A stretch of 64,000 bases of DNA. Origin: an uncultured Paraprevotella sp. (GTDB taxonomy: Bacteria > Bacteroidota > Bacteroidia > Bacteroidales > Bacteroidaceae). The translations under genes and the position numbers were made by a program. Below the pieces are notes generated by a model. It made no database searches. It was given only the letters and a program-made list of their open reading frames with translations, and was not told the origin of the DNA. The stretch covers positions 1 through 64,000 of the forward strand of contig CALUIV010000012.1 in NCBI GenBank assembly GCA_944320775.1. Direction: 5' to 3'. This document shows, one piece after another, positions 13,535 through 61,974 of the stretch. Position 1 is the stretch's first letter; each line of letters opens with the position of its first letter.

Positions 13535-14737
13535 TCAGAAAGAATTTATTTGCGGATCGTCTTTGTATTTCAGATAAGTATCCAGGTCCTTGTCACCTCT
13601 TCCGCTTACGGTAAGAACAACAACATCGTCTGGTTGGAATCTCATTTTGGGAAGCATACCCAGAGCATGTGCAGATTCTAGAGCGGGAATAATACCTTCG
13701 GTTCGCGTCAGTTCGAAGGCAGCCCGAAGTGCCTCGTCGTCGTTGATGGCCATTACTGTTGCCCGACGTTCTTGTGCCAGATGAGCGTGAAGTGGTCCTA
13801 TTCCTGGATAATCCAAGCCGGCCGAAATGGAATAGGGTTCGGTTACTTGACCGTCTTCGTCTTGCATGACCAGTGTCCGGAAACCGTGGATAATGCCAAT
13901 TTTACCACAATGAATGGTTGCGGCTGTTTCGCCGCTTTCTATACCGTGACCTCCAGCTTCGCCCAAAAATAGTTTGACCCGCAGATCATCAATATAGTGA
14001 TAAATGGTCCCTGCAGCGTTAGATCCTCCGCCAATGCAGGCCATCAGATAGTCGGGATAGTCGCGGCCTTCTTTTTCGAGCAGTTGTTGTTTGATTTCTT
14101 TACTGATGATACTTTGCAGCCGGGCTACCAGGTCGGGGTAGGGATGAGGCCCGACTGTGGAACCGATAATGTAGAATGTATCGTCGGGGTGAGAGCACCA
14201 GTCGCGTATTGCTTCATTTGTGGCATCTTTCAGAGTCTTGTTTCCGCTATGTACGGCATAAACTTCTGCTCCCAACATTTTCATACGTTCCACGTTGACA
14301 TGTTGGCGTTCTACATCGGTTGCTCCCATATAAACGCGGCAAGGCATGTTCATCAGAGCACAGACCGTGGCTGCTGCTACACCATGCTGTCCTGCGCCGG
14401 TTTCTGCAATAATACGTTTGCAGCCCATTTTTTTAGCCAATAGAATTTGTCCGATGGCATTGTTTATTTTATGGGCACCAGTATGATTCAGGTCTTCGCG
14501 TTTCAGATAGAGCCGACAGCCATACTTTTCGCTCATCCGACGAGCAAAATAGAGTGGTGAAGGACGTCCGACGTAGTCATGTAATAATTGATGGAATTCT
14601 TTTTGGAAATCTTTTGATTCGAGGATCGTCAGATAATTGTTACGTAGTTTTTCTACGGCCTGATAAAGAATTTCGGGAATATAGGCGCCGCCGAATTCAC
14701 CATAATATCCGTTTGTGTCAATGTTGTAGGTTTTCAT
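13535..14737 (-). CDS. trpB: Tryptophan synthase beta chain
   Basis: A 400-residue PLP enzyme that condenses indole with serine. The PLP lysine is in [13 protein letters not shown], followed by [11 protein letters not shown] and the phosphate-binding [18 protein letters not shown]-like text at the N-terminus ([13 protein letters not shown]) is standard for TrpB1. It is the first structural gene of the operon, just downstream of the attenuator at 14777-14825. Confidence 0.98.
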
Positions 14738-14776: not shown

Positions 14777-14825
14777 CGGAAAAATAAAAAAGCAGAGACC
14801 TGTCGCAAGTACGACAGGTCTCTGC
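14777..14825 (-). terminator. trp operon attenuator terminator
   Basis: GCAGAGACCTGTCG (14825-14812 on the minus strand) pairs perfectly over 14 bp with its complement at 14805-14792 across a 6-base loop. A TTTTTTATTTTTC tail follows to about 14777. It lies 40 bases before trpB and after the leader peptide, which is the layout of a Rho-independent attenuator. Confidence 0.9.
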
Positions 14826-14866
14826 TTATTCTATTATTCTGCTTGTTTTAAAATGAATACACGAGA
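14818..14866 (-). promoter_or_regulatory. trp leader antiterminator pairing
   Basis: On the minus strand GTCTCGTGTATTC (14866-14854) can pair with GAATAAGCAGAGAC (14831-14818) as 5+2+5 bp with small bulges. The second strand includes part of the terminator's first arm, so this fold excludes the terminator. The same TGTATTCAT (14861-14853) can instead pair with ATGAATACA inside the leader ORF (14922-14914), which would free the terminator. This gives the classic 1:2 / 2:3 / 3:4 competition. Confidence 0.7.
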
Positions 14867-14874
14867 CGGGCTCC

Positions 14875-14934
14875 TCACGACTTGTTAGGTTCTGAGTAGC
14901 GCCACCACCAATATGTATTCATGTTTGACATCAT
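14875..14934 (-). CDS. trpL: trp leader peptide with Trp-Trp-Trp
   Basis: A 19-residue frame from ATG 14934 to TGA 14875 reads MMSNMNTYWWWRYSEPNKS. Three consecutive TGG codons occupy 14910-14902. It lies between a good promoter and the attenuator upstream of trpB. ATGs at 14931 and 14922 are in frame. The first is preferred because it aligns exactly with the pheA-operon leader (M-x4-N-T-Y). Ribosome stalling at the TGG run under Trp starvation would release the antiterminator; this is inference from the architecture. Confidence 0.88.
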   Translation of the reverse strand: MMSNMNTYWWWRYSEPNKS

Positions 14935-39302: not shown

Positions 39303-39369
39303 TACAATTAATTTTTAGTTATCTATCTTTATGTTTTCACACTAATCCGCGAGTGTTCAACAGTACTGG

Positions 39370-39547
39370 AATTATGGCAGGTATTCTGACTTACTCCAAT
39401 TCTGCTGCCTTCCCAATGCTGGGCATCAGTGGCGGGGGTATTGCAGAATCAAATAAATGAGCTCACAGCAGCGGGCCTGTTCAGGACTTTCACCTGATTC
39501 CCTTTTAATAACTCCTCCCGAAGGTGGGAACTGTTCACCAAAATCGC
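39370..39547 (-). ncRNA. Cobalamin (B12) riboswitch upstream of the carboxylase operon
   Basis: Read on the minus strand, the conserved blocks come in the correct order: GGGAATCAGGTGAAAGTCC, then CAGGCCCGCTGCTGTGA, then the B12-box GCCACTG (39433-39427) with GGGAAGGC (39414-39407), then AGTAAGTCAGAATACCTGCC (39396-39377). An upstream P2-like pair GTTCCCACC/GGGAGGAG is also present. Its start coincides with the transcription start expected from the -7 box at 39557-39550. An ACACT/AGTGT hairpin follows, with no U tract, so translational control is the simpler guess. Boundaries are approximate. Confidence 0.92.
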
Positions 39548-39549
39548 CG

Positions 39550-39557
39550 CAAAATTA
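39550..39557 (-). promoter_or_regulatory. -7 box for the riboswitch-carboxylase transcript
   Basis: TAATTTTG on the minus strand (39557-39550). No good TTTG lies 19-21 bases upstream, so only the -7 element is supported. Confidence 0.45.
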
Positions 39558-55591: not shown

Positions 55592-56365
55592 CTATTTGAT
55601 ATTTTCACGGATTCTGGTCAGATAATGTTTCATGCCGTTTTCATCATGATTTTCGATGATGTTCATCAATTCTTTCAATTGTTCGCGAATGTGCTGTACC
55701 TGATTTTTTGTTCGTGGATTGAACAGGATTTCACGTAGCAGGCAGTCGTCTTCGCTCAACACTCCACGGGCAATTTGCAAATGGCGTTTAAACGTGGTCC
55801 CCGGAGCATCCTGATGTTTCATAACTGCCGAGAAAACGAAAGTCGAGACAAACGGAATACTCAATGAATAGGCCATGGTTTCGTCGTGTTCTTCAAATGA
55901 GTATTCACACAGGTGCAGTCCCAGCCGGTTATAGAGGTCGCGAAAAAAGATGCGGCCCATATAGTCGCCTTCATTGATGATAATGGCATTTTCCTGACTC
56001 AGGGCACCTAAATTGGCAAAGGTCGGTCCGAACATGGGATGCGTGCTGACATAACGCATGCCGGTAGATTCATAGAATTCCTTAAATCCGGTTTTCACGG
56101 AAGAAATATCGCTGATGATGCAGTCTTTAGACAGATGAGGGATAACTTGCCGGAAAACGTCCAGTGTGTATTTCAGAGTTACGGCATTGATGACCAGTTC
56201 CGGATTGAATGCATCTATTTCGTCGAGCGATGTAAAACGTTGCGTATTGTAGAGGAACCGCAGTCTTTTCGGGTCGATTTCATAGACTGCCGTTTCGTGT
56301 TCGAAACTGAGCAGGTCTACGAAAAACGATCCCATTTTTCCGGCTCCCAAGACCAGAATTCTCAT
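55592..56365 (-). CDS. tyrA: Prephenate dehydrogenase
   Basis: A 257-residue enzyme that oxidises and decarboxylates prephenate to 4-hydroxyphenylpyruvate. The NAD-binding loop is VLGAGKMGSF, followed by SDISSVKTGF and the substrate-binding STHPMFGPT. There is no ACT or chorismate-mutase domain; the mutase is fused to the upstream DAHP synthase instead. It lies 27 bases after that gene. Confidence 0.93.
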   Translation of the reverse strand: MRILVLGAGKMGSFFVDLLSFEHETAVYEIDPKRLRFLYNTQRFTSLDEIDAFNPELVINAVTLKYTLDVFRQVIPHLSKDCIISDISSVKTGFKEFYESTGMRYVSTHPMFGPTFANLGALSQENAIIINEGDYMGRIFFRDLYNRLGLHLCEYSFEEHDETMAYSLSIPFVSTFVFSAVMKHQDAPGTTFKRHLQIARGVLSEDDCLLREILFNPRTKNQVQHIREQLKELMNIIENHDENGMKHYLTRIRENIK

Positions 56366-56392: not shown

Positions 56393-57457
56393 TTACTTGT
56401 TCATTTCTTCCATTTGCTGTCTTACGCTTTCTTCGTGGATGTGTTCGTAGATGTTCTTTACAAAGTCGGCATCCATTCCGCACAGAACTCCTTGTGCTCC
56501 GCGTTTATCCAGAATTTCACTGTAGCGTGCAGTCTGTACTACAGCCATGTTATGCTGTTTTTTGTATTCGGCAATTTCGCGGCTGATACGCATGCGTTTG
56601 GTGAGCAGTTCCATCAGGTTATTGTCCAGTTCGTCGATTTGCTGGCGCAGGGCATTTAGGCTTTCCGTTGCCTCCTTAGTATTGCGGATTACGAGCCGGT
56701 CTAAAATAAAGTTCAGCACATCCGGTAAAACTTGTTGTTTGGCGTCGCTCCAGGCACAGTCCGGATTACAGTGACTCTCGATCATCAACCCTTCAAAGCC
56801 CATATCCATAGCCTGTTGGCAAAGGGGAGCGATGAGGTCACGGCGTCCGCCGATATGGCTCGGATCGCAGATAATCGGCAGGTTAGGATAGCGGCGATGC
56901 AGTTCAATGGGGAGATGCCACATGGGGGCATTGCGATAGAGTTTCTGGTCGATGCTTGAGAAACCGCGGTGGATAGCAGCCAGACGGGTAATTCCGGCTC
57001 CGTTGATGCGCTCGAGTGCGCCGACCCAAAGTTCGATATCCGGATTTACCGGGTTTTTTACAAAAACCGGAACATCAACACCTTTCAGCGAGTCTGCCAA
57101 TTCCTGAACGGCAAACGGGTTTGCCGAAGTACGGGCACCGATCCAAAGAATATCCATACCGGCATTCAAGGCAGCTTCCACGTGTTTTGGGGTGGCTACT
57201 TCCGTACCGATCAGCATGCCGGTTTCCGCTTTAACCTGTTGCATCCAAGGCAGTGCCTCTTCGCCTTTTCCTTCAAATCCGCCTGGCTTTGTACGTGGCT
57301 TCCATACACCGGCACGGAATATTTTTATCCCCTTGCTGGCCAGTTCCAAAGCGGTTTGCAATACTTGTTCTTCTGTTTCGGCGCTACATGGACCGGCGAT
57401 AATCATCGGCCGGTTTTCCGAACCCGGGAGGTTCAATGGTTGCAATGTTAAGTCCAT
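56393..57457 (-). CDS. Bifunctional DAHP synthase / chorismate mutase (type II)
   Basis: A 354-residue fusion. Residues 1-265 are a type I-beta DAHP synthase with AGPCSAETEEQV, GVWKPRTKPGGFEG and PIICDPSHIGGRRD, which condenses PEP and erythrose-4-phosphate. Residues about 270-354 are an AroQ chorismate mutase helix bundle (ALRQQIDELDNNLMELL, RMRISREIAEYKK). It unites the first shikimate step with the branch step to prephenate. In this family the mutase domain often serves as the feedback sensor; inferred here. Confidence 0.95.
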   Translation of the reverse strand: MDLTLQPLNLPGSENRPMIIAGPCSAETEEQVLQTALELASKGIKIFRAGVWKPRTKPGGFEGKGEEALPWMQQVKAETGMLIGTEVATPKHVEAALNAGMDILWIGARTSANPFAVQELADSLKGVDVPVFVKNPVNPDIELWVGALERINGAGITRLAAIHRGFSSIDQKLYRNAPMWHLPIELHRRYPNLPIICDPSHIGGRRDLIAPLCQQAMDMGFEGLMIESHCNPDCAWSDAKQQVLPDVLNFILDRLVIRNTKEATESLNALRQQIDELDNNLMELLTKRMRISREIAEYKKQHNMAVVQTARYSEILDKRGAQGVLCGMDADFVKNIYEHIHEESVRQQMEEMNK

Positions 57458-57523: not shown

Positions 57524-58717
57524 TTATGCTTTGTGGAAAATTCTTTTTATCCGTTCCAGAGCTTCAGCTATTTTTTCTTCTTTGGCACAAAGTGAAATGC
57601 GGATATAGCGTTTTCCGTTGCTTCCGAAGATGAATCCCGGAGTGATGAATACATGGGCTTCCTGCAGGACTTTTTCCGTCAGTTCTTCGACATCGGCATA
57701 ATGGTCGGGGATTCGTCCCCACAGGAACATACCGACCTGATTGGGGTCGAACGAACAGTCAAGTGCTGTCATGATTTGTTCTGCCAGATTGCGCCGGCGG
57801 CGGTAAGTTTCGTAATTGGCTTCTTCATGCCAGGACCGTTCGTTCCGATAAGCTTCTGCCGCAGCCAGTTGCATGGGACGGAATGTGCCCGAATCAATAT
57901 TGCTTTTCACTTTCAATATCCATTTGACAAATTCTGCATTGGTGGCCAGCATCCCAACGCGCCATCCTGGCATATTGTGGCTTTTACTCATGGAGTTGAA
58001 TTCGATGCAGCATTCCTTGGCTCCCGGCACCTGAAGCAGACTCATCGGTTTGCGATTGAGAATGAAGCTGTATGGATTGTCGTTCACTACAATAATGTTC
58101 TTTCTGCGAGCAAAATCAACCAGTTTTTCATAAGTTTCCATCTGTGCATTGGCGCCGGTCGGCATGTTCGGATAATTGGTCCACATGATTTTTACCCGAC
58201 TCAGATCCATCGCTTCGAGTGCTTCAAAATCCGGTTGCCAATTGTTTTCGGGTTTCAGGTCGTAGTTAATGATTTCGCTTCCCAGGATTCGGTTGAGTGA
58301 CGTATACGTCGGATAACCCGGATTGGGAACCAATACCTGATCGCCCGGATTGACGAAGGCCAATGTAACGTGCAGGATACCTTCTTTGGATCCGATAAGC
58401 GGTTGGATTTCTGATTTCGGATCGAGATCTACGTTATACCAGCGTTTGTAGAAGTCGGCCATTGCTTCGCGCAGTTCCGGAATACCCACTGTTGGCTGAT
58501 AACCGTGAACATCGTCACGTTGGGCCTGTTCGCATAAAGTCTGTATGGTTCTTGCCGATGGAGGCATATCGGGACTACCGATCGCCAGACTGATGACGTT
58601 CTTTCCTTCGGCATTCATACGCGCCACTTCTTTTCCCTTGGTTGAGAAATAATATTCGTTGACGCAGGACAGTCGTTCTGCCGGTTTAATATTTGTGTTA
58701 TATACTTTGTTTTCCAT
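57524..58717 (-). CDS. Class I/II PLP aminotransferase, probably aromatic
   Basis: A 397-residue fold-type I aminotransferase. The PLP lysine is in SMSKSHNMPGWRVG near residue 245, the aspartate pair region is VVNDNPYS, and the C-terminal substrate Arg is in RYIRISLC. Its place between pheA and DAHPS-CM suggests it transaminates phenylpyruvate/4-hydroxyphenylpyruvate or prephenate. The fold family also includes aspartate and LL-diaminopimelate enzymes. It overlaps the end of pheA by 20 bases. Confidence 0.88.
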   Translation of the reverse strand: MENKVYNTNIKPAERLSCVNEYYFSTKGKEVARMNAEGKNVISLAIGSPDMPPSARTIQTLCEQAQRDDVHGYQPTVGIPELREAMADFYKRWYNVDLDPKSEIQPLIGSKEGILHVTLAFVNPGDQVLVPNPGYPTYTSLNRILGSEIINYDLKPENNWQPDFEALEAMDLSRVKIMWTNYPNMPTGANAQMETYEKLVDFARRKNIIVVNDNPYSFILNRKPMSLLQVPGAKECCIEFNSMSKSHNMPGWRVGMLATNAEFVKWILKVKSNIDSGTFRPMQLAAAEAYRNERSWHEEANYETYRRRRNLAEQIMTALDCSFDPNQVGMFLWGRIPDHYADVEELTEKVLQEAHVFITPGFIFGSNGKRYIRISLCAKEEKIAEALERIKRIFHKA

Positions 58718-59540
58718 CTTGATATTCTCCTAAAATTTTAAGTTCTTGTGTTAGTGGGGTTATTGCGTCAATGCTTTGCGAATAGCGGGTATAGTCACTG
58801 AAAGCCAAGTCGATGTAGAACAGATACTGCCATTCTTTTCCGATAATCGGGAGTGATTGGATTTTGGTCAGATTCAGCTTGTAGAACGACAGGATAGACA
58901 ATACCTGTGAGAGTGATCCTTCCTCGTGTGGAAGTGAGAACACCAGGCTGGCTTTGTTTGCCTTTCGGATATCACGGAGCAGGTTGGCCCGTTGTGGATT
59001 GCAGAATACAAGGAATCGGGTGAAATTGTGTTTGTTGGTTTCTATACCTTCCTGCAGGATTTTCATTCCATAAAGCGGAGCGGCAAATTTGGAACAGATA
59101 GCAGCGTGTCCGCGTAAATGTTTACGACTGATAGCTTCTGCAGATCCGGCTGTATCATCTGTTTCAACAACCTTGATATCGGGATGCTGATGCAGGAATT
59201 CGCGGCATTGCATGAGGGCTACCGGATGGGAATTGACTTCTTTGATGTCGTTCCAGTTGTCTTCGGGCAGACACATGATGCTGTGCGAGATTCTGAGTTT
59301 GTGTTCGCCGATGATCGTGGCACCACTTTCACGCAACAACTCGTAATTGTGCAACAGGCTTCCGGCAATCGTGTTTTCGATAGCAGTCATGCCGATGACA
59401 GAGCTGTCGTTTTTCATTTCTTCGAATACCTGTTCGAATGTATCGCAACAGATGAGTTCGATGTCTTCTCCTTCGAAATATTTATGAGCTGCGATGTCGT
59501 GATACGATCCTTTGATTCCTTGTATAGCTATCCGTTTCAT
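58698..59540 (-). CDS. pheA: Prephenate dehydratase
   Basis: A 280-residue enzyme that converts prephenate to phenylpyruvate. The catalytic domain (about 1-185) has IQGIKGSYHDIAA, GMTAIENTIAGS and NFTRFLV with the catalytic Thr-Arg. An ACT domain (about 195-275, SLVFSLPHEEGSLSQVL) gives the usual Phe feedback. There is no fused chorismate mutase. It is the first structural gene after the pheL attenuator. Confidence 0.95.
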   Translation of the reverse strand: MKRIAIQGIKGSYHDIAAHKYFEGEDIELICCDTFEQVFEEMKNDSSVIGMTAIENTIAGSLLHNYELLRESGATIIGEHKLRISHSIMCLPEDNWNDIKEVNSHPVALMQCREFLHQHPDIKVVETDDTAGSAEAISRKHLRGHAAICSKFAAPLYGMKILQEGIETNKHNFTRFLVFCNPQRANLLRDIRKANKASLVFSLPHEEGSLSQVLSILSFYKLNLTKIQSLPIIGKEWQYLFYIDLAFSDYTRYSQSIDAITPLTQELKILGEYQDGKQSI

Positions 59541-59601
59541 TGATTTTAAATTTATGTTTTGTTTCTTTTTATCTGTGTTGTTTTCATGAGAACTATAAAA
59601 A

Positions 59602-59628
59602 AATCCCGCTTGGTACTCAAGCGGGATT
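59602..59628 (-). terminator. Phe/Tyr operon attenuator terminator
   Basis: On the minus strand AATCCCGCTTG (59628-59618) pairs with CAAGCGGGATT (59612-59602) and runs into TTTTTT. The first arm's TCCCGCTT can instead pair with AAGCGGGA inside the leader ORF (59684-59677), an 8-bp antiterminator. It lies about 60 bases before pheA. Confidence 0.92.
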
Positions 59629-59645
59629 CATTTGTTCATTTGACC

Positions 59646-59747
59646 TTATCTGTACATCGGACTGATACATACGACTTCCCGCTTCACTTTATTGCTAAAG
59701 TAAAAGTAAAAGAAGAAGTAAAAATATGTATTCACCAATGTTGTCAT
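59646..59747 (-). CDS. pheL: Phe/Tyr leader peptide
   Basis: A 33-residue frame from ATG 59747 to TAA 59646. It begins MTTLVNTY and continues so that ten consecutive codons (59726-59697) read Tyr or Phe (YFYFFFYFYF), followed by SNKVKREV. A GGAAATG ribosome site and a perfect promoter precede it, and a terminator follows. The AAGCGGGA antiterminator segment lies in the ORF just after the aromatic codons. Stalling at those codons would free it; full translation would cover it and let the terminator form. Function inferred from layout. Confidence 0.9.
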   Translation of the reverse strand: MTTLVNTYFYFFFYFYFSNKVKREVVCISPMYR

Positions 59748-59771
59748 TTCCTTTTTGTTTTTATTTCATTG

Positions 59772-59802
59772 CAAATGTAAGTAAAAAAATAGTTTCTGCA
59801 AA
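59772..59802 (-). promoter_or_regulatory. Phe/Tyr operon promoter
   Basis: On the minus strand TTTG (59802-59799), 19 bases, TACATTTG (59779-59772): a perfect match, with transcription start about 18 bases before the leader ATG. Confidence 0.82.
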
Positions 59803-59853
59803 TGTTTGACTACTTTTTTTGAGAAAAAAGTTATTCTGTCTTACGTTCTGTTA

Positions 59854-61974
59854 TTATAATAAGGTAAAATGAAGACAGGTATCGACCATTTCATAAAGAT
59901 TGGCTTCCGGAATTAGGGATTGTTCGTGACTTTCAGTCCAGCCTTTTTCCAAAGAAGAGAAGTTGGGAGCTCCAATGTGTTGTCCTGCGGCTCTACGGTT
60001 CAACCAATTGAAAAACAGTTGCCAGCGTGGATAATAATAGTCGCGTATCAGACCGCTCCATTCCCGATGTCCCAAGTCGTTGCATTCGCTGTTCTGATTA
60101 TCCCATGTTGTCAGAATCATACGGGCGTTTCGTTCCATCTGTTCTTTTGCTTCAGGGTCTTTCACAGAATTACGGGCTTTCCCAATCCATTCAGATAGGC
60201 AAAACTCCTTGCGGCACGACAATAGCTTGTCTTGCAACAGCAACAATTCCAGAAACTGGTTGGTACGGAGTTGCAGAGAATCTTTGTCCCCGTTGTCGAA
60301 ACTGTTTCGGATGCGTGCATAGAGCGTATTGGCTTTGTTGCTCATCATCTGACGGACAAGGTCGGTCAGATCGTGTTCATACGCATCGCAACCCTGCAGA
60401 CTGTCACGGGCTGAGGCGAACAGGCGGACACCTTCTTCAAATTTCTCCATATCGTAGTTGATCTGTGTGCTGCCATTTGGAGTGACCCGGTCCGTGTCAA
60501 GTCCCGGACGCGCACAGATATAGCTTTGAGGCGGTCGGCAAGTTCCGTTTTGGCGGCTATAGACGGTCTGATAGAAAAGAGACCAGGCCTTTTGCAGACG
60601 TTCGTCGTTTTTTCCGTAACGATAGCTGATATAGTCGTTAAGCCATTTAGAGATGTTCGGACTTTCTTCGTGCCAGCGCATTTCCCATGCCAGGTCGAAT
60701 GCTACGGAATTACTGCCTAATCCGGATGGTACGGCACCGATTCCTTTAATGTGTGATGACGAGGCAGCTTCCTGTCGGGCCCGTATTGTTTCGGTGGCGA
60801 TGGCATCGAGTTGTCCGTAAAGTCCCGTATTACCGTTCCAGTTTGTGGTATGCGCCCAAAGCCAGGGAAAGTTATTGAACGAATGTGTTTTTTCCCACTC
60901 TGCTGCACAATCGGCATTCGGGTCGATGATCAGCGTGTTTTGTTTTTTCAGGCCGGCAAGTGTCTCCAGTTGGGGATAGTCTGTTTTTGCCTGAAAAATC
61001 CATACGTTGAGTTGGTCATATTCCATCAAGGCCTTTTGGATATTTTCTGCCGTTTCTGCCGGATTCAGACTTTCCGGACGGATAAAATCGCCGTAGAAAT
61101 AACAGGTCTTTCCATAAAGCTTTTCGTATTCTTTATACCATACTTGGGCCATCTCTTTAAACAACGGATCTGTAGAGTCGAGTATAGCCGGACGTGTTTT
61201 ACTTTCAGAGTCTTTTTGCAAACAGATCTTTGCATTAGGATATTTTTCTTTCAGACTGGCCGGCACGATTCCTGTGAAGACCTGAAACACAGGGGTCATG
61301 CCATATGCCCGCATCTGACGGACGATACGTCGTTGCAGCCTTTTCTGGCGTTCGGTCCATTCTTTAGGCATCGTTCCTCCCAACTGACTGATATGTCCGC
61401 TCCAGGTCCAGCTGGTAAAGGGCGGTGCCGCCAGTGTGGCGCGGGCTTCCTCTTCCGTATAATTAAAATGTTTCAGCGTGTTGATCCAGACACATTCCGT
61501 ACCGACGAGTGCTAAAGGCATCGTAATTCCGTTCAGGGCCATACGGTCGATTTCCGCTTCCCAGTCTGTCCAGTCCCAAAATGCAGTCGTATAGCCAAAA
61601 GCACGTTGGTCCAGGTAGAAACTGTGTGGCAGCGGTGTCTCTTTTCGGATCAGGTTTTGAGGCATGGGAAGTTTTCCGGTCAACTGGATTTGTTTGCCTT
61701 TCCATGTGATAACGGGCTGTCCGTAGTGTTTCAGATACCAGTTTAGTCCGCAGGCCATATTTACCGGACTGTTTCCGCGGATACGTATTTTACCACTGCT
61801 TTCCGAAATCTCAAAATAATTCCGCTTACTGGGTGATATTTCCTGTACAAACAGGATTTGTTGTCGTGCTTGGGGAATCAGGCGTTCGACCATCCGTTCC
61901 AACGGACCGGCCGACAGGTTTGACGGGAGTAATGTCAGAACCAGAAGCATGATGGCGACAATTTTGTGTTTCAT
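59854..61974 (-). CDS. Alpha-N-acetylglucosaminidase (GH89, NAGLU-like)
   Basis: A 706-residue exported glycosidase with a signal peptide (about 1-22). An N-terminal NAGLU domain (about 30-115) leads into the barrel with RQRAFGYTTAFWDWTDWEAEIDRMALNG style text, QLGGTMPKEW and WIFQAKTDYP, then the helical C-terminal domain with ending TCLHFTLL. GH89 enzymes remove terminal alpha-GlcNAc, for example from gastric-type mucin or heparan fragments. It follows a TPR gene by 37 bases. No SusCD pair is near, so it is not in a visible utilisation locus. Confidence 0.93.
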   Translation of the reverse strand: MKHKIVAIMLLVLTLLPSNLSAGPLERMVERLIPQARQQILFVQEISPSKRNYFEISESSGKIRIRGNSPVNMACGLNWYLKHYGQPVITWKGKQIQLTGKLPMPQNLIRKETPLPHSFYLDQRAFGYTTAFWDWTDWEAEIDRMALNGITMPLALVGTECVWINTLKHFNYTEEEARATLAAPPFTSWTWSGHISQLGGTMPKEWTERQKRLQRRIVRQMRAYGMTPVFQVFTGIVPASLKEKYPNAKICLQKDSESKTRPAILDSTDPLFKEMAQVWYKEYEKLYGKTCYFYGDFIRPESLNPAETAENIQKALMEYDQLNVWIFQAKTDYPQLETLAGLKKQNTLIIDPNADCAAEWEKTHSFNNFPWLWAHTTNWNGNTGLYGQLDAIATETIRARQEAASSSHIKGIGAVPSGLGSNSVAFDLAWEMRWHEESPNISKWLNDYISYRYGKNDERLQKAWSLFYQTVYSRQNGTCRPPQSYICARPGLDTDRVTPNGSTQINYDMEKFEEGVRLFASARDSLQGCDAYEHDLTDLVRQMMSNKANTLYARIRNSFDNGDKDSLQLRTNQFLELLLLQDKLLSCRKEFCLSEWIGKARNSVKDPEAKEQMERNARMILTTWDNQNSECNDLGHREWSGLIRDYYYPRWQLFFNWLNRRAAGQHIGAPNFSSLEKGWTESHEQSLIPEANLYEMVDTCLHFTLL

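Follow-up and report, generated by a model that had tools for sequence, protein, structure and literature searches.

A predicted transcription attenuator with interleaved phenylalanine and tyrosine codons ahead of pheA in Bacteroidia

What is the role of a short open reading frame, ten consecutive codons of which specify tyrosine or phenylalanine, placed between a promoter and a terminator upstream of a gene for prephenate dehydratase? The question is raised by a locus in a 64 kb stretch of DNA from an uncultured Paraprevotella sp. (the whole stretch analysed, 64,000 nucleotides, is referred to here as the window). An initial annotation of positions 59602-59802, strand unstated, had described these parts as a complete ribosome-sensing attenuator. 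The explanation that best accounts for the locus, to which we assign a probability of about 0.9, is indeed a ribosome-mediated transcription attenuator, in which charged tRNA-Phe and tRNA-Tyr would be sensed together. Below we set out the parts, their conservation and their capacity to pair, and weigh three other readings where the evidence bears on them.

Organization of the pheA leader

All parts of the attenuator, and the pheA operon itself, lie on the minus strand (Table 1). The ORF of 33 codons with its uninterrupted aromatic run, and the antiterminator segment proposed to lie inside it, were both found where the initial annotation had placed them: the run is the longest in the six frames of the window (the runner-up has 6 codons), and AAGCGGGA is complementary to TCCCGCTT, the first arm of the terminator, over 8 bp. 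The terminator is located between the leader ORF and pheA. The arrangement of promoter boxes fits the Bacteroidetes -33/-7 consensus.

Table 1. Features of the leader and of the operon that follows it (window coordinates)
Feature	Position	Strand	Detail
Bacteroidetes-type promoter	59772..59802	-	-33 TTTG, 19-nt spacer, -7 TACATTTG; sequence reading and pattern match
Promoter boxes	TTTG 59802-59799; TACATTTG 59779-59772	-	19 nt between boxes
Leader peptide ORF	59646..59747	-	33 codons; MTTLVNTYFYFFFYFYFSNKVKREVVCISPMYR
Control codons YFYFFFYFYF	59697..59726	-	ten aromatic codons in a row
Region 2, antiterminator segment AAGCGGGA	59677..59684	-	within leader ORF
Region 3, terminator first arm TCCCGCTT	59619..59626	-	complementary to region 2
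Intrinsic terminator	59601..59629	-	12-pair stem, then U tract; terminator scan
pheA, prephenate dehydratase	58698..59540	-	Pfam PDT 1.6e-55
Class I/II aminotransferase	57524..58717	-	
DAHP synthase / chorismate mutase fusion	56393..57457	-	
tyrA-like prephenate dehydrogenase	55592..56365	-	

The fold of the whole leader RNA has an energy of -47.1 kcal/mol, against a mean of -28.4 for shuffled sequences (z -5.5), and consists of two main hairpins: in one (1:2) part of the control-codon run is paired with the downstream half of the ORF, and the other (3:4) is the terminator. Region 2 is able to pair either with the control-codon region, as in the 1:2 hairpin of this fold, or with the first arm of the terminator (2:3).

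The operon 3' of the leader runs in the order pheA, aminotransferase, DAHP synthase/chorismate mutase and tyrA-like gene (59540-55592) and makes both Phe and Tyr; this content, which had been noted as matching a leader that reads both amino acids, counts in favour of Phe/Tyr-sensing attenuation. Among the matches listed, the closest named PheA is that of Candidatus Paraprevotella stercoravium (89% identity). Directly upstream of the leader promoter, on the same strand, is a gene of the alpha-N-acetylglucosaminidase (NAGLU) family (59854-61974, minus strand).

The leader in relatives

Conservation was assessed in two samples. The near set consists of 80 regions, the window plus 79 loci from a PheA search (the best 80 loci were kept; one of them, L027, is without upstream DNA). 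The wider set was taken from the pheA upstream regions of 100 further genomes, hand-picked among the matches listed; after one region of 18 bases had been dropped, 99 remained, mostly from the class Bacteroidia, with five from other classes (G014, G283, G275, G156 and G133). Because the sequences are related, the counts of conservation that follow are of non-independent events.

Leaders were scored as ORFs in which 7 or more of 12 codons are aromatic and which lie no more than 300 bases upstream of pheA. Such a leader is present in all 80 near regions, among them that of Phocaeicola vulgatus ATCC 8482 (L068), compared to 1 of 80 reverse strands and 8 of 1600 shuffles; when at least 8 of 12 are demanded the near regions still number 80 of 80, and the reverse strands and dinucleotide shuffles fall to 0/80 and 0/1600. 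Within the wider set 85 of 99 regions reach 7 of 12 (reverse strand 1/99, shuffles 16/1980); the other 14 do not, and seven of the 99 are without a leader even at 6 of 12. Extending the distance to 400 bases gives the 87 wider leaders used in all later counts. The choice of ORF matters: picking by length overlooked four near leaders (L015, L060, L061 and L079), which are recovered by taking the nearest ATG. Matching of an exact-DNA pattern, by which 16 of 61 family genomes were hit once each (reversed control, 0), is too strict for counting leaders; for these matches the location before pheA was established in the window, G230 and G238.

Promoter and terminator are conserved along with the ORF. 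The claim of a promoter is borne out by the TTTG-N19-TACATTTG of the window and by a -7 box (TAnnTTTG) that all 80 near regions carry in the 90 nt ahead of the leader ORF, compared to 118 of 1600 shuffles; if a TTG at a distance of 17-23 nt before the box is required as well, the counts are 75/80 and 13/1600, and the strict form TTTG-N18-21-TAnnTTTG is found in only 26 of the 80. A strict terminator follows 68 of 80 near leaders (shuffles 2/800) and 76 of 87 wider leaders (shuffles 5/870). A few near leaders (L009, L031 and L035) have a weak U tract, and a mismatch-free scan missed 12 of the 76 near leaders examined, whose hairpins, on inspection by eye, contain a mismatch or a wide loop or are followed by a weak U tract. 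A looser scan detects terminators after 78 of 80 near leaders (shuffles 74/800) and all 87 wider ones (shuffles 108/870); its two near-set misses, L067 and L074, have a wide loop by eye.

The occurrence of the leader in relatives marks it as a real and conserved example of a classic type of switch. As to its range, four of the five members of the wider set from outside the class reach 7 of 12 within 700 bases; among 20 further pheA upstream regions from outside the class, a leader is present in one, and the element is thus not phylum-wide. Its main home is the class Bacteroidia. Outside the class, leaders accompany PheA proteins 43-48% identical to that of the window in five of six sampled genomes (L084, L086, L098, L100 and L196; the sixth, L090, has 6 of 12 aromatic codons), and none was found in 19 genomes with PheA at 34-39% identity. 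The pheA operon and its leader may have been transferred together between classes.

The initial annotation had suggested that the operon reads both Phe and Tyr. Both amino acids are encoded in all 80 near leaders and in 86 of the 87 wider ones, which supports this reading; Trp is encoded in 5 of the near and 34 of the wider leaders, and in some lineages "all three" may be the better description. Across the wider set the order and number of Phe, Tyr and Trp codons vary. The run ends, in the near set, in five nearly invariant codons (TTT-TAC-TTT-TAC-TTT), synonymous third positions included, the loosest being the first of the five (TTT in 53 and TAT in 24 of 80). Closer to the start of the run, Phe and Tyr codons replace one another and synonymous codons are exchanged, and the positions stay mostly aromatic. 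This is the pattern expected if the end of the run were held by both codon meaning and RNA pairing.

The same codons bear on a different reading, according to which the leader gauges general translation speed or global stress, its aromatic codons being present because U-rich codons make a good region 1. That the last five codons of the near set are nearly fixed at synonymous positions, and so are probably constrained by RNA pairing, agrees with this reading, as does the full fold, where the run pairs with the downstream half of the ORF; yet the upstream codons of the run change in both identity and synonymous position and nevertheless stay mostly aromatic, and the wider leaders, whose RNA is different, are still rich in aromatic codons, including, in the 34 leaders noted above, that for Trp, which is not pyrimidine-rich. 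We consider this reading very unlikely, and the two that follow slightly less probable still.

Pairing, spacing and the modelled ribosome

Statistics for the 2:3 duplex cover the leaders with a called terminator (78 near and 87 wider). At p <= 0.05 the duplex outperforms dinucleotide shuffles in 77 of the 78 near leaders and in 78 of the 87 wider ones, the pairing in the remaining nine wider leaders being non-significant against shuffles; the 78 significant wider duplexes comprise 75 distinct sequences. Conservation of the aromatic codons and of the pairing across related genomes, proposed at the outset as a check on the attenuator, is therefore evident in both samples. When region 2 in the wider set is paired with its own arm the mean energy is -12.9 kcal/mol, compared to -8.4 for an arm swapped from another leader and -6.3 for a shuffled one. 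The corresponding values for the near set are -14.9, -13.9 and -7.1 kcal/mol: here swapping of arms between species costs little because the core of the pairing shows little variation.

In the near alignment (79 distinct rows) standard pairs occupy 593 of the 632 cells of the 8-bp core, compared to a mean of 567 and a maximum of 579 in 500 row shuffles. Changes on both sides of a pair affect 33 cells, 30 of them at one end pair (A-U in 42 rows, G-C in 30); L057 and L064 carry a two-sided change within the core. Of the 39 cells with non-standard pairs, 32 are at the other end pair, and 4 cells carry a break in one of the six inner pairs.

Pairing and promoter also address the suggestion that the ORF encodes a functional small protein and that the hairpin is merely the terminator of the upstream NAGLU gene. 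That gene does lie just upstream, and a scan of the minus strand from 59200 to 60300 gave no other terminator-like site; but a promoter sits between it and the leader, in most of the relatives tested the end of the leader is complementary to the first arm of the hairpin, and both the length of the ORF and its C terminus vary with the position of the stop codon. This suggestion we regard as very improbable.

For the attenuator to work, region 2 would have to be exposed by a ribosome on the run and hidden by one that has left it. The behaviour of the ribosome was modelled with a simple footprint, RNA being counted as accessible once it lies 14 nt or more beyond the first base of the A-site codon, with only RNA downstream of the ribosome being considered. 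Region 2 starts 7-13 nt past the last aromatic codon in all 78 near leaders and in 73 of 87 wider leaders; given this spacing, a modelled ribosome on the run leaves region 2 free and soon afterwards covers it. The modelled hold on region 3, followed codon by codon in 25 leaders, is high while the ribosome is on the run; once the run has been left, it takes 1-4 codons to drop below half in 77 of 78 near leaders and 79 of 87 wider ones. Demanding a hold of at least 0.5 at the last aromatic codon together with one below 0.5 at the stop codon leaves 76 of 78 near leaders and only 66 of 87 wider ones. In the window, the probability of 2:3 before region 4 has emerged is 0.97-0.98 when codons 13 and 17 occupy the A site (0.98 for the last Phe codon), and three codons later, at codon 20, it is 0.00.

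Among the near leaders 47 of 78, and among the wider ones 63 of 87, have a region 2 that begins within the ORF; in the remainder it begins at the stop codon or beyond. There are thus two layouts: either a ribosome at the stop codon covers or abuts region 2, or, as in the window, it has already passed it. In the latter layout region 2 would need to be recaptured by the 1:2 hairpin.

The stop codon of these leaders may come before or after region 2, and this, together with the conservation of aromatic content and RNA pairing rather than of an order or number of Phe, Tyr and Trp residues (which differ in the wider set), leaves little in favour of the least probable of the alternatives, in which a leader peptide binds free Phe or Tyr in the exit tunnel and stalls the ribosome as TnaC does with Trp: peptides of near relatives are alike, but read-through upon amino acid abundance would be the wrong direction for a biosynthetic operon.

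Returning to ribosome-mediated attenuation, we infer from parts and spacing the following course of events. The leader ORF would be translated while it is transcribed. If Phe or Tyr were scarce, the ribosome would slow on the ten Tyr/Phe codons and leave region 2 (AAGCGGGA) free to pair with region 3 as it emerges; formation of the 3:4 terminator would be delayed, and polymerase would read through into pheA and the aminotransferase, DAHP synthase/chorismate mutase and tyrA-like genes behind it. If both were ample, the ribosome would leave the run and cover region 2 within about three codons; it would then proceed to the stop codon beside the terminator, region 2 could re-pair behind it with the control codons, and once 1:2 had re-formed 3:4 would form and transcription would stop.

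At equilibrium, 3:4 prevails in every modelled state of the ribosome as soon as region 4 has emerged (0.96-1.00): the finished terminator is always favoured, and antitermination would therefore have to be kinetic, as is accepted for classical attenuators. The attenuator is complete, as had been claimed, in its parts; the word does not extend to the relative timing of ribosome and polymerase, which is not visible in sequence. In the model 2:3 still forms before region 4 when no ribosome is present (0.91). The idea that an untranslated leader favours termination from the start is unsupported, since 2:3 precedes region 4 there as well; by this model the untranslated leader is not obviously in the off state.

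Relation to known leaders

The enteric pheA attenuator (pheL) consists of a leader ORF rich in Phe codons, alternative hairpins and an intrinsic terminator. The element described here resembles pheL (Rfam RF01859, Phe_leader) in having a Phe-rich leader ORF before the prephenate dehydratase gene, alternative hairpins and a terminator, and by analogy it should work in a similar manner. It differs from pheL in that Tyr codons are interleaved with those for Phe, and Trp codons are added in some lineages; in that the operon also makes Tyr; and, in the window, in the placement of region 2 within the ORF. We know of no Tyr codons in an enteric Phe leader. Mixed-codon leaders are found in the attenuators of the ilvGMEDA and thr operons, which respond to branched-chain amino acids or to Thr and Ile: as there, a single leader here would read several amino acids, although these are aromatic. 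Amino-acid attenuators of this phylum may already have been predicted by Lopatovskaya et al. in 2010 (Mol Biol).

Scored against RF01859, the leader of the window gives 26.3 bits (E 0.031), and the highest score among 12 relatives scanned is 31.3 bits; both are under the gathering cut-off of 55, and by the family's own rule the element is thus no member of Phe_leader. At gathering thresholds the only Rfam match in the whole window is a cobalamin riboswitch (39359-39557, minus strand; 99.9 bits). All matches around the leader (59400-59900, E <= 1) are below cut-off, and none of them is Bacteroid-trp.

Bacteroid-trp (RF01692) is an RNA element of the same phylum (listed in a table of PMC2864571); compared to the pheA leader, it has Trp codons and belongs to a different operon. 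When 150 of 274 first-look candidates from the window's own genome were scored against it at E <= 10, two matches were listed, neither of them at 59601-59747. The window contains a second leader, MMSNMNTYWWWRYSEPNKS (14875-14934, minus strand), with three consecutive Trp codons and a terminator consisting of a strong hairpin and U tract (14791-14826, minus strand); its score against Bacteroid-trp is 38.9 bits, below the cut-off of 49. Behind it come a trpB-like gene (13535-14737, Pfam PALP) and a gene for anthranilate synthase I, and the presence of such a Trp-rich leader before a trpB-like gene in the same window is counted in favour of attenuation.

Among earlier accounts, one passage lists pheA among attenuated operons (PMC1183508). 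The closest precedent comes from a 2021 transcriptome study of Flavobacterium psychrophilum (PMC9723704), passages of which report a structured 5' element before pheA, without Rfam hits and shared with further Flavobacteriaceae genera, and speak of strong clues that amino-acid operons are preceded by leader-peptide attenuators. Going by this description, that element is probably the same as the one in the window, observed there as a transcribed region; those passages give no peptide, Phe/Tyr mix, pairing or range beyond the family. A map of Bacteroides thetaiotaomicron mentions sORFs resembling leader peptides (PMC7366714), and neither "pheA" nor "phenylalanine" occurs in its main text. In the literature searched, which took in few subscription papers, neither the mixing of Phe and Tyr codons nor the pairing nor the range of the element was found to be described.

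We give about even odds to a broader proposition: that this is an old, class-wide attenuator of Bacteroidia which integrates Phe, Tyr and often Trp at a single operon and takes the place of separate regulators for Phe and for Tyr, with an antiterminator locked to the footprint of the ribosome just behind the control codons and a stop codon that has moved between two solutions, before and after that segment. From the set of leaders a covariance model could be built, which would cover an element missed at the cut-offs of the Rfam version used. The prediction that follows for the biology is of one RNA element reading two or three amino acids simultaneously, and of classical ribosome-mediated attenuation as a likely old control of Phe and Tyr synthesis in a class that is dominant in the gut and in the environment.
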